From positions 1 to 55,603 of IMG/VR virus record IMGVR_UViG_3300031772_000046: a stretch of 55,603 bases of DNA; one strand, 5' to 3'. Source of the stretch: a virus. The translations under genes and the position numbers were made by a program. Of this stretch, positions 19,457-37,949 are shown in pieces; the stretch's first letter is position 1, and each line of letters starts with the position of its first letter. The notes beneath the pieces are model-generated. The model did no database searches, had not been told where the DNA came from, and saw only the letters and a list, made by a program, of their open reading frames with translations.

Positions 19457-19530
19457 TGGTGGAGCGGCGCGGACTTGAACCGCGATCTCCTGGGTGCAGA
19501 CCAGGAATTCTCCCGTTGAACTACCGTCCC
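19457..19530 (-). tRNA. tRNA-Ala (anticodon UGC), with C33
   Basis: A 74-nt cloverleaf with acceptor GGGACGG/CCGCTCC, D arm GTTC...GAAT, perfect anticodon stem CCTGG/CCAGG, T arm CGCGG-TTCAAGT-CCGCG, A73 and encoded CCA. The G3-U70 wobble, the classic alanine identity element, is present, which supports anticodon UGC. Loop TCTGCAC puts C at 33. One acceptor mismatch (A4-C69) is seen. Confidence 0.85.
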
Positions 19531-19535
19531 AAAGA

Positions 19536-19610
19536 TGGTGGGCGCGGGAGGAATCGAACCTCTATCGCGCGGCTTAAAGGGCCGCCGCTCTACCGTTGAG
19601 CTACGCGTCC
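19536..19610 (-). tRNA. tRNA-Lys (anticodon UUU), with C33
   Basis: A 75-nt cloverleaf with acceptor GGACGCG/CGCGCCC (one mismatch), D arm GCTC...GAGC, perfect anticodon stem GCGGC/GCCGC, T arm AGAGG-TTCGATT-CCTCC, A73 and encoded CCA. The loop CCTTTAA gives anticodon UUU with C rather than U at position 33. Its 5' end overlaps the last 10 nt of the methyltransferase gene. Confidence 0.87.
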
Positions 19611-21184
19611 GCTTCCTGCGACCCAAACAACGGCAACTCGGCACCCATGCGTTGCCTGATGATGTCGCAGTAGTGCGCATCCTTCTCGATGCCTACGGCG
19701 TTGAAACCCTCGCGCACAGCGGCAAGAAGGGTTGTCCCCGAACCGGCGAAGGGATCAAGGATGGTGCCGTTGGGCGGGCAGACAAGGCGACAGAGCCAGC
19801 GCATCAGGGCCAGGGGCTTGACTGTTGGGTGGTCGTTACCCTCGCCACGCTCAGACTGCGATGCCTTGGCGCAGTATCTAAATCGCTCTACGCAGTCCCG
19901 CCCCCCAAGAACCGCGTTCATCAGCATGGAGTCGGATATGACACTTTCTGCAAAGCCATCGATACTCGAAAGGGTGTGAATAGTCCCCATGGTGCTTATC
20001 AGCCTGTGGACTACCACATATCTCACAGGGGTGTCGTTCAACATTTCCGTGATTATGCGCCGCAACTCGGCAACACACTCTCGCCCTGTATTCCGCATCT
20101 GCGTGATACCGTTCCCGTCTCTCTGCTCGTATGCGTTCCCCATGGCGCTCATAAAACGTGCCAGCGGTGCGTTTGCGGCTTGCCCCTCTGGCAATTGCGC
20201 GACTACTACAAGATCTAGAACAGAATCGGCGAATCCCCTTGACTGCGTTGAATCCATTGCCACAGAATTCGCAGTATTTGACCAACTCTCGTCTCCCCCC
20301 TTCGTAATCTTGAAGAAACGAGAAGCGCCGCCCTTGCTGGGTCCGAAGTGTGCGCCGTCTGGTTTACCTCGAAACTGCCCGTAGATGCCGTGTCGCCCGG
20401 CTATGGCGGGCGCCGTCGGGCTTCTTGTCACGGCACCGCTGTTCAGGACACCGCTCTGCTTATCCAACATCGCAGCCGCCTCTTCGTCCAAGACGACGTT
20501 CGCGGGCCAGCGGCCATCGGTTGGGCGCGGGTGTTCACGGTTATCAAGTTGGCCCCCGTATCCGCATGAGGGATCGCCCTTCCAGCCACCCTTGCCGAAC
20601 AATCGGCACTCCTCGATGTTCATCGCCCCACATCCCCACTTGGCGATGTTCTGCGCATACGTGCCGTCAAGGGGCTTCTGCGCCAGGATAATGTCCTCAT
20701 GGGCGGGTTTCAGGGCCGTGCCCCACCCGTGCCAGTCGGGCATCTCTGCGGCAATGTTGTGGTTCTTGGGGAAGCCTGTCCCGTACAGCCAGCACAGTTT
20801 GTCCCTGACGATGAACCCCGCATCCTCAATCCCACAGGTAAGGCGATGAACCGTGCGCGTCCCGCCGAAGGCAAGGAGGTAGGCGCCGGGCTTCATCACG
20901 CGCAGAAGTTCGCGTGACCATGAGGTACACCACACTTGGTACGGATGTCCCGCCTCGTATGCGTTGACCGCATGGCGGACGTAGGCTCCCTTGCTGGCAT
21001 CGCGCAAATCAGCTTCACGTCGCGTGCGTGCTTCCGCGTGGGTATTGGCGGACTTAAAGCTGTCCCATTCCTGGCCCATGAACTCCAAGCCGTAGGGGGG
21101 ATCGGTGACAACGGCTTCGATGCTGTTGGCTGGCATGGCGCGCATTAGGTCCAGGCAGTCGCCTTGGTGCAGGGTCCATGGCAT
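19601..21184 (-). CDS. DNA methyltransferase (beta-type order) with in-frame insertion
   Basis: A SAM-dependent N4-C/N6-A DNA methyltransferase. Catalytic DPPY is at 28-31 and SAM-binding DPFAGSGTT near 477, the circular order of beta-class enzymes. ATG 21184 is preferred for Shine-Dalgarno spacing. The usual ...ASRFF|YCAKAS... junction is split by a 435-nt (145-codon) insertion at about 19877-20311 that stays in frame and contains an HNH gene in another frame. If translated through, the enzyme carries an extra 145-residue block before its last motifs, so activity is uncertain. No restriction partner is seen. Confidence 0.9.
   Translation of the reverse strand: MPWTLHQGDCLDLMRAMPANSIEAVVTDPPYGLEFMGQEWDSFKSANTHAEARTRREADLRDASKGAYVRHAVNAYEAGHPYQVWCTSWSRELLRVMKPGAYLLAFGGTRTVHRLTCGIEDAGFIVRDKLCWLYGTGFPKNHNIAAEMPDWHGWGTALKPAHEDIILAQKPLDGTYAQNIAKWGCGAMNIEECRLFGKGGWKGDPSCGYGGQLDNREHPRPTDGRWPANVVLDEEAAAMLDKQSGVLNSGAVTRSPTAPAIAGRHGIYGQFRGKPDGAHFGPSKGGASRFFKITKGGDESWSNTANSVAMDSTQSRGFADSVLDLVVVAQLPEGQAANAPLARFMSAMGNAYEQRDGNGITQMRNTGRECVAELRRIITEMLNDTPVRYVVVHRLISTMGTIHTLSSIDGFAESVISDSMLMNAVLGGRDCVERFRYCAKASQSERGEGNDHPTVKPLALMRWLCRLVCPPNGTILDPFAGSGTTLLAAVREGFNAVGIEKDAHYCDIIRQRMGAELPLFGSQEADA
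19878..20285 (-). CDS. HNH endonuclease nested in the methyltransferase gene
   Basis: A 135-residue frame from TTG 20285, preceded by a purine-rich AAGGGGGGAGACGAGAG, to TAG 19878. N-terminal CEFCGNGF...FCSRSC is a zinc finger. The C-terminal part CEICGSPQADKHH...WLCRKCHIRLH is a clear HNH nuclease motif with the CxxC...CxxC zinc frame and catalytic His. It lies on the same strand as, but out of frame with, the methyltransferase. HNH genes of this kind are mobile homing endonucleases; mobility here is inferred from its nested position. Confidence 0.82.
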   Translation of the reverse strand: MVKYCEFCGNGFNAVKGIRRFCSRSCSSRAIARGASRKRTAGTFYERHGERIRAERRERYHADAEYRARVCCRVAAHNHGNVERHPCEICGSPQADKHHGDYSHPFEYRWLCRKCHIRLHADERGSWGAGLRRAI

Positions 21185-21205
21185 AGAAGTCACTCCCCAG
21201 ACGCG

Positions 21206-36136: not shown

Positions 36137-36546
36137 GCGGAAGCCTCCTCAAGCAGCGACTGATACTCCTTCATGGCCGCAATCCCCACCAGAACACGGG
36201 GCACCGCGTCGTATCGCTTGTGAACGTCCAGGCTCACGATGCAGGAGTCGTCGCGGTAGATCACGCCGAGAAGGGCGTCCTCGACCGCCTTGATGAGGTT
36301 AGAACAGTCGGGCCGTCCCGTTGGGTACTGCTTCTTCTTCGACTTCGGCGGGCTTGAGTAGAAGACCGCCACTACCGCCAGGGGTTCATCCAGGGGCACT
36401 TCAGGCCGATGCTTCAGGGCCTCTTCCCTGATGCACAGGCGCCATGCCGCCGTGTTGGGGGGTGTGTACGGCCTACCCCCGCGCGTTCCCGAGTGACGCG
36501 CCCGCGCCTCCGCTACCGCCGTGCCGTAGACGGTGAAGGAGATCAT
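36133..36546 (-). CDS. rusA: RusA-like Holliday junction resolvase
   Basis: The 137-residue protein from ATG 36546 has the RusA core: TVYGTAVAEARARH at the start, RPDCSNLIKAVEDALLGV, and IYRDDSCIVSLDVHKRY with the conserved Asp residues. RusA cuts four-way junctions formed in phage recombination and replication, working with RecT/SSB in this operon. The end overlaps the tandem Cys gene. Confidence 0.88.
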   Translation of the reverse strand: MISFTVYGTAVAEARARHSGTRGGRPYTPPNTAAWRLCIREEALKHRPEVPLDEPLAVVAVFYSSPPKSKKKQYPTGRPDCSNLIKAVEDALLGVIYRDDSCIVSLDVHKRYDAVPRVLVGIAAMKEYQSLLEEASA

Positions 36547-37949
36547 GTCATGTCGCCTCCAAGTTGCAGCTGCTGGGGTACATCGATGGCCCCGCGCTCG
36601 AACGACCACCTTGCTTGTGCGGCCTCCGCGTCTATGCGCTTACGCGCCTCATCGGCATAGGCGGGGTTCAGCTCAACGCCGATGTATGCCCGGCCATGGC
36701 GCACGGCGACAAGCCCTGTGGTGCCCACGCCCATGAAGGGATCGAGGACAACGCACTTGGCGGACCCGTCGTTTGAGGGGCAGGGGCAGGTGGGGCGCCA
36801 GCCGCTAGTATTATAGAGGCGGGTTGCGTTACACGATGCGCCGGCATCATTGCGATCTGGATTTGGCATCGCACGTCTCTGTTTGCGTTCTGATTGCATC
36901 TTCATTACCTGCCGCCTCCATGGCGCTCCGCAGCTTGGACAAGCCATGGGGCTTGTCCCCGCCAGGATGCAGGGTTCGACGAGGGCCGGGGGAAAGACAG
37001 CGAAGTGAGGGCCGGGATAGGGTTCTGTGGGCACCCTCCAGACGTTGCGCTTGTTGCGGCCCCGCAGGGGGTCGCCGTACTGCGCCCGCCCGTCATGTAG
37101 GCCCCCCGTTGTGCGATTGCCCTGCATGGTCAAGGCGCCTGTCTTGTGGGCCGCCGTGTCGGCCGCAAACACTCGCCCGGGCTCCGCCATCGGTTCCCGT
37201 ATCGCGTCGGCGTCATAGGCGTAACTCGAGCTCTTGGCGAGGTGGAACACGTGCTCGTGGGCGCACGTGGTCCTGTCAGTCACACTCTCGGGCATACAGT
37301 TAGACTTGCCCCAGATGTTGTCCTGGCGCAGATACCAGCCGTCCGCACGCAGGGCGAAGGCGAGGAGCCAGGGGATGCCCACTAGATCCTTGGGCTTGAG
37401 GTTTCCCGTTGCCCGCCTTGTAATCTGATACCCCGCCGCACCGCGATTCTTCCCGCCCTTAAGCGTCGAACACGAACTCGGATTCGACATCCCGCCTTGA
37501 GCGTAGGTATCAGCTATGATCACCCACAGCGTGCCGTCCTTGCGCAGCACCCTGCGCACTTCGCCGAAGACCGCCACCAGATGGCCGATGTACATCTCCG
37601 GTGTCGGCTCCGCCCCCAGCTCGCCCCTCCAGGCGCCGCACGCCTGACAGAACAGCCCGCCGGCGACCAATGAATGCCTAAGCGCCCTCTCGCCTATCTG
37701 CCCTTTGCGCCGGGCTTTGCCATCGACCAGCCCCCCATGATAACCAGGATCTAGCCGACCGCCATCATCGCCCCAGTTGGTGTGCGGGCACGCCGGAGCG
37801 CCGCCCCATACCTGCGGCTCAGTACCGTAGGCCCTCAGCCCAAAGTAGGGGGGCGAGGTGACGCAGCAATGTATGCTGTTGTCGGGCAGCGTTGCAAGCG
37901 CGTCCAGGACGTGGCCTGTGATGATGGTGTTGAGGGGCAGGGAAGTCAC
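36543..37949 (-). CDS. DNA methyltransferase (TSPPY)
   Basis: A 468-residue DNA methyltransferase (GTG 37949, GTGA-coupled). Catalytic TSPPYFGLRAYG is at 31-42 and SAM-binding DPFMGVGTT near 403-411. TSPPY is usual for N4-cytosine or related enzymes. The central region has a CPSCGAPW zinc-like site and a target-recognition part. It probably methylates phage DNA to escape host restriction. There is no cognate nuclease in the window. Confidence 0.9.
   Translation of the reverse strand: MTSLPLNTIITGHVLDALATLPDNSIHCCVTSPPYFGLRAYGTEPQVWGGAPACPHTNWGDDGGRLDPGYHGGLVDGKARRKGQIGERALRHSLVAGGLFCQACGAWRGELGAEPTPEMYIGHLVAVFGEVRRVLRKDGTLWVIIADTYAQGGMSNPSSCSTLKGGKNRGAAGYQITRRATGNLKPKDLVGIPWLLAFALRADGWYLRQDNIWGKSNCMPESVTDRTTCAHEHVFHLAKSSSYAYDADAIREPMAEPGRVFAADTAAHKTGALTMQGNRTTGGLHDGRAQYGDPLRGRNKRNVWRVPTEPYPGPHFAVFPPALVEPCILAGTSPMACPSCGAPWRRQVMKMQSERKQRRAMPNPDRNDAGASCNATRLYNTSGWRPTCPCPSNDGSAKCVVLDPFMGVGTTGLVAVRHGRAYIGVELNPAYADEARKRIDAEAAQARWSFERGAIDVPQQLQLGGDMT

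Follow-up and report, generated by a model that had tools for sequence, protein, structure and literature searches.

An out-of-frame HNH gene nested in an open phage DNA methyltransferase gene: a probable frame-preserving homing cassette and its family

How an HNH gene can lie out of frame within another gene whose own reading frame stays open, and whether this openness is due to chance or to selection, are the questions raised by a DNA methyltransferase (MTase) gene of an uncultured virus. The gene is located in the window, i.e., the whole 55,603-base stretch of IMG/VR DNA analysed here, which also carries phage-type genes for a portal protein, a terminase, RecT-like and RecE-like proteins, an integrase, and endolysins. 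The insert probably represents a frame-preserving, dual-coding HNH homing cassette at the site RFF/Y-CAK (the slash marking the insertion point), which consists of little beyond one endonuclease gene.

The methyltransferase gene and its insert

The MTase open reading frame extends from 19601 to 21193 on the minus strand and comprises 530 codons from a GTG start, or 527 from the ATG of MPWTL. Its N-terminal part (20312..21193, minus strand; 294 codons) is recognized by alignment and by matches to Pfam N6_N4_Mtase (E 1.1e-31) and phrog_67 (E 9e-78), and contains the motifs DPPYGLEFMG, GWGTALKP, RWPANVVLD, and ASRFF in this order. The C-terminal part (19601..19876, minus strand; 91 codons plus stop, AlphaFold pLDDT mostly 85-97) continues with YCAKAS, HPTVKPLALMRWL, and DPFAGSGTT. 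The modelled enzyme is matched by Foldseek to CcrM (6pbd, E 5e-13) and M.BceJIV (8urk, E 6e-11) and combines the DPPY and FxGxG motif halves with a Rossmann fold, as in the CcrM-like N6-adenine MTases; the window enzyme is predicted to be an N6-adenine-type, CcrM-like DNA methyltransferase. Genes for tRNA-Ala and tRNA-Lys (19457-19610, minus strand) follow immediately downstream, the latter overlapping the 3' end of the MTase frame by about 10 nt, and a second phrog_67 methyltransferase of the same genome, lacking the RFF/Y motif, is encoded at 36543-37949 (minus strand).

The initial annotation had proposed that 435 nt (19877..20311, minus strand) split RFF from YCAKAS, and alignment with 34 uninterrupted homologues has placed the junction at exactly this position. 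Read in the MTase frame, ASRFF is followed by 145 codons free of stops, as previously noted, and devoid of known similarity, before the frame enters YCAKAS. A tblastn search with this translation returned no phage match, and in the AlphaFold model the two halves of the MTase are confident, with the insert at a pLDDT of about 29-53 and showing no fold.

The HNH endonuclease gene (19878..20285, minus strand; 135 codons with a TTG start and a TAG stop) is read in frame +2 relative to the MTase. It starts 26 nt into the insert, and its stop ends at nt 434 of the 435, leaving a single nucleotide; the Shine-Dalgarno-like stretch AAGGGGGGA (20294..20302, minus strand), recognized from its sequence, lies 5' of the start. 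The out-of-frame gene with its coordinates, the Shine-Dalgarno-like stretch, and the remaining nucleotide, all noted earlier, were reproduced. At the 3' end of the insert, the Arg-Phe codons CGATTT of the MTase frame (19880..19885, minus strand) overlap the HNH stop codon. The higher AT content already suspected for the insert is borne out by a GC content of 52.9%, compared to 61.9% and 62.7% in the flanks, and the proposed comparison of codon use points in the same direction, with a third-position GC of 0.46 in the HNH frame and of 0.73-0.76 in the MTase. Because of these lower values, a foreign origin of the HNH insert is suggested.

Matches to phrog_2340 (E 3e-8) and phrog_1271 (E 3e-7) assign the protein to the HNH family, and 16 residues are invariant in an alignment of 30 members (C5, C8, C22, C26, C87, C90, H98, H99, D101, Y102, P105, W110, C112, R113, H116, and H120). 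The HNH frame alone is modelled by AlphaFold with a pLDDT of 84. Pfam yielded nothing above cut-off for the protein, the search of the model with Foldseek gave no match below E 0.8, and no solved nuclease resembled it significantly in PDB sequence or Foldseek comparisons.

The RFF/Y family, its empty sites, and its probable mobility

Alleles lacking the insert at the same site, which the initial annotation had recommended to look for, turned out to be numerous: in the 34 uninterrupted sequences, which are MTases from IMG/VR and from cultured phages at homologous loci, RFF runs directly into Y-x-[APS]-K. The mycobacteriophage relatives contain four extra residues at this site (RFFPVF[KR]Y). Carriers of the insert were collected by scanning IMG/VR with HNH protein alignments, a procedure blind to nesting, and by an additional scan of bacterial genomes; over-exact patterns derived from the window HNH alone had retrieved none from IMG/VR, while the alignment queries retrieved the relatives. 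As a result, 52 close HNH relatives of approximately 42-60% identity were obtained, 51 of them in viral contigs and one, L234 from the bacterial scan, in a contig of Paraburkholderia phenazinium LMG 2247 with phage-type neighbour genes (a prophage region). All 52 are nested at RFF/Y in the identical relative frame and within an open MTase frame, where openness refers to the visible part in those contigs that end inside the MTase gene. The existence of homologues with the same insert had been named as potential counter-evidence; since they occur as other carriers beside many empty sites, they support the insertion rather than refute it.

The members vary around a common design. The insert length is divisible by three in every measured member and ranges from 420 to 513 nt, except for L207, whose insert is longer (243 codons), and the position of the HNH stop relative to the Tyr codon varies between 13 nt before it and 35 nt past it. 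One member (L242) reads RYFF instead of RFF. Of 41 members, 30 have a Shine-Dalgarno-like stretch 5' of the chosen start, and none is obvious in the other 11; the TTG start of the window gene is rare in the family. In nearly all members, the last two residues of the insert in the MTase frame, directly before Y, are Arg and a hydrophobic one (RF in most cases), and the CGATTT of the window duplicates the RF of the interrupted RFF. Comparison by eye of the two ends of the window insert for a direct repeat gave a match at only 4 of 12 nt, for which reason the RF repeat is claimed from the family only. In L208 (79-1635 and 2094-3188), the frame holding the cassette lacks the N-terminal half of the MTase, which is encoded on a separate upstream frame, and this MTase may be broken.

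Inserted and empty alleles are intermixed in a quick MTase tree, which requires 17 changes, compared to a mean of 22.4 (range 16-27) after shuffling. The two trees are in conflict: tested on the HNH alignment, the MTase topology is rejected (delta lnL 381), as is the HNH topology on the MTase data. Moreover, the inserts of L196 and L197 share 92% DNA identity vs 58-77% in their flanks. The patchy spread, the tree conflict, and the pattern of L196 and L197 fit the predicted homing. Part of the tree conflict could stem from recombination inside the MTase gene, as reported for the same MTase family (PMC9957025).

The open host frame and the competing explanations

With the HNH protein held fixed, the MTase frame also remains open in 20-25% of synonymous shuffles of the window sequence (P = 0.21-0.25); the single case is weak evidence against chance, and only the family decides. 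Across 43 distinct members, the host frame contains no stop, compared to 36.1 expected from synonymous shuffling (summed log10 P = -22, calculated over trials that are not independent because of shared ancestry, at a median DNA identity of 58%), and the remaining third frame contains 358 stops. The control set consists of 55 HNH relatives that are more distant and lie outside RFF/Y; their equivalent frame has 255 stops vs 241 expected and is never open, and the only three control genes with the other frame open are all themselves located inside long ORFs of different genes. Since the control HNH genes show no stop avoidance, openness goes with nesting and not with HNH coding, and openness by chance, albeit compatible with the window alone, is ruled out for the family as a whole.

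These values bear directly on the alternative that survives best, according to which the MTase is dead or split and its open frame is a chance by-product of HNH coding. Such a reading can draw on the roughly one-fifth of shuffles that stay open in the window, on the poor conservation of the insert's own residues, and on the dispensability of the MTase in relatives of the mycobacteriophage ShiLan, as described in PMC11855218. It is nevertheless unlikely, as it leaves unexplained the missing stops in the family next to a control set without avoidance, the equally open frames of members with stacked double inserts, the intact motifs on both sides of the insert, and the case of L249, in which a nonsense codon breaks the HNH frame and the MTase frame is still open.

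Selection on the residues encoded by the host frame was considered as well, because an initial analysis indicated an excess of identity there (z 8.7). This candidate was rejected, because the third frame is equally in excess and both signals fade in diverged pairs, which identifies the excess as shared ancestry; in terms of conservation, the insert residues in the MTase frame fare no better than those of the third frame. The open MTase frame is best explained, as judged from the sequence comparisons, by stop avoidance through selection, and the picture emerging from sequences and models is that of a presumably tolerated loop, in which selection would act against stops and frameshifts only. The two possibilities raised by the initial annotation, a minimal dual-coding homing cassette or a tolerated in-frame extension, appear compatible with each other, and the homing-like distribution and the family-wide stop avoidance lend support to both.

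A mechanism may be proposed on this basis. Ribosomes initiating within the MTase message at the Shine-Dalgarno-like site would produce the HNH protein, while reading straight across would yield a full and, as we infer, working MTase with about 145 extra residues, probably forming an unstructured loop between the conserved halves. During co-infection, the HNH enzyme would cut or nick uninserted alleles, and repair would copy the cassette into them. As splicing machinery is absent from the element, any cassette disrupting the MTase frame would be lost, and selection would therefore keep the insert length divisible by three and stops out of the second frame, leaving the residues of this frame to drift. 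Splicing is the way in which group I introns and inteins deal with this problem; the RFF/Y element would escape the need for it by its readability.

That the insert is itself a self-splicing intron or intein, which removes itself and restores the MTase without extra residues, is very improbable. Its position at a conserved motif, its mobility, and the inteins found elsewhere in the MTases of this family (PMC9957025) would agree with this, but HNH coding takes up 408 of the 435 nt, leaving no room for a self-splicing intron, as had been noted from the outset. Searched at E values up to 1, Rfam reported matches only outside the insert, namely two tRNAs and a weak tmRNA, and thus no intron family within it. 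The strong avoidance of stops would also be unexpected for an intron, which does not need the host frame to be open. As to an intein, the insert begins with Lys and ends with Arg before Tyr, the latter being the +1 residue in the family members, and the Cys/Ser/Thr and Asn required for splicing are missing. It is equally hard to believe that the HNH protein is no longer selfish and serves the phage, e.g., in a restriction-modification-like pair with the MTase for the sake of which the nesting is kept: its intactness in many diverged members does indicate long persistence, but many close MTases are devoid of the insert, its distribution is patchy and its tree in conflict with that of the MTase, L249 carries a broken copy, and elsewhere in the same gene other HNH families are found.

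Further hidden HNH genes and relation to known systems

The MTase family is a hot spot for hidden HNH genes. Eight members of the RFF/Y family harbor a second nested gene, identified as HNH by PHROGs, with no host-frame stops vs about 30 expected. It is located at the ShiLan site in L203, L247, and L249, in the GFPK-GTALKP region in L123, L208 (there within the separate upstream MTase-like frame), and L251, before GRWPAN in L198, and inside an intein in L250. In the latter case (L250:456-3452, IMGVR_UViG_3300027895_000005), the intein is inserted at LYA/C...GN/SGFPKS and its ends match those of the ShiLan intein (E 9e-20 and 3e-9), while its middle contains an out-of-frame HNH gene (approximately 1267-1911) in place of the in-frame LAGLIDADG; the RFF/Y cassette is present in addition. 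A different HNH gene of 142 codons (phrog_99) is inserted between YVAKASKSER and HSTVKP in an open MTase frame of L082:2489-4087 (IMGVR_UViG_3300047170_000040), and long extra stretches occur in the same MTase region of L122 and L126. Two further arrangements were observed in this gene family. In L087:2045-3868, in contrast to the frame-preserving inserts, the MTase frame is split and disrupted directly past YCPKTSKKDRNEGL by a nuclease-like gene that contains zinc-finger motifs, and the MTase of an uncultured phage (L003:1503-3194) includes, in frame within its N-terminal part, a LAGLIDADG-like stretch, as in mycobacteriophage Taj.

Outside the MTases, three candidate nestings were read from long open frames alone, namely an out-of-frame HNH gene in a terminase-large-subunit-like frame (L168:1-1176, IMGVR_UViG_3300003323_000688; phrog_5653, E 3e-7; 0 stops vs 4.3 expected), one in a frame of phrog_28018 of unknown function (L186:1981-3024; 0 vs 7.6), and one in a 1,612-codon phage protein frame (L158:388-5225; 0 vs 1.5). 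It is evenly balanced, in our judgement, whether the HNH homing genes of phages are, as a general class, coding-neutral parasites; such elements would be selected to be stop-free in the host frame and invade coding sequences without splicing, stacking two per gene, using either relative frame and several host genes (the MTase, the terminase-like gene of L168, and those of L186 and L158), and even replacing the endonuclease of an intein, as in L250.

For the arrangement, of which the initial annotation was not aware of an example, precedents have been published. The closest is the ShiLan domain of mycobacteriophage ShiLan gp65, an out-of-frame HNH gene in the same MTase family (Arsenault et al., 2025, PMC11855218; PMC9957025). 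According to PMC11855218, the ShiLan insert of 202 codons likewise lies between codons of a conserved motif with a stop-free host frame, its HNH gene likewise occupies the third frame, with its start 18 nt into the insert and its stop in the last 4 nt, and here, too, no intron or intein was detected and the distribution is patchy. The window shares the motif insertion absent in relatives, the open host frame, the placement of the HNH gene, and the patchy distribution with this system. However, the ShiLan site, which was located in JN020143, is GTALK/PxFEPI instead of RFF/Y, and the similarity of the two HNH proteins is limited to a short zinc-finger stretch (pairwise E 0.001), indicating that the RFF/Y insert is the same kind of element, but not a copy of the ShiLan domain. 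Moreover, PMC11855218 describes the ShiLan gene as lacking a ribosome-binding site and suggests that its initiation in Mycobacterium is leaderless, in contrast to the Shine-Dalgarno-like stretches prevailing in the window family, and the sections of this paper that were consulted contain no stop-avoidance test for the ShiLan domain. In the open-access main texts, neither the RFF/Y family, its site, its HNH type, or a spread beyond actinophages, nor Shine-Dalgarno-like starts, frame-selection statistics with a control, or stacked inserts were found.

With this family, the puzzling case of ShiLan becomes part of a widespread class, for which a testable rule can be stated, namely that a mobile gene inside a coding sequence needs no splicing if the second frame is kept open. 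The two-frame constraint is shown statistically with a matched control set, and the members provide a natural set of dual-coding genes for studies on the evolution of overlapping genes; with Paraburkholderia phenazinium LMG 2247, a cultured carrier strain is open to expression tests.

Other known elements resemble the window insert in part. The phages Applejack (PMC12613952, as annotated there), HanShotFirst, and StellaBean also contain an out-of-frame HNH gene nested in an open frame of the same MTase family, but this type encodes an HNH protein of 208 amino acids in relative frame +1 and replaces the region between GFPKS and GTALKP. In Pacc40 gp60, an HNH-like gene is likewise nested out of frame within a phage methylase frame that stays open, although at another position and in a divergent helicase-methylase, as reported in PMC11855218. 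The free-standing phage HNH proteins of phrog_2340, e.g., those of Escherichia phage morffagbaw and Vibrio phage 1220 g2, share a related core (26-34% identity), whereas they are encoded by ordinary separate genes with stops in the alternative frames. The inteins or in-frame LAGLIDADG inserts of Hannaconda, KanikaMF1, and Taj are likewise frame-preserving mobile elements in the same MTase family; in contrast to the window insert, the inteins splice themselves out, and the LAGLIDADG shares the reading frame of the host gene. The kind of arrangement seen in the window is already known from ShiLan, and the RFF/Y family should be regarded as a separate and widespread representative of it.
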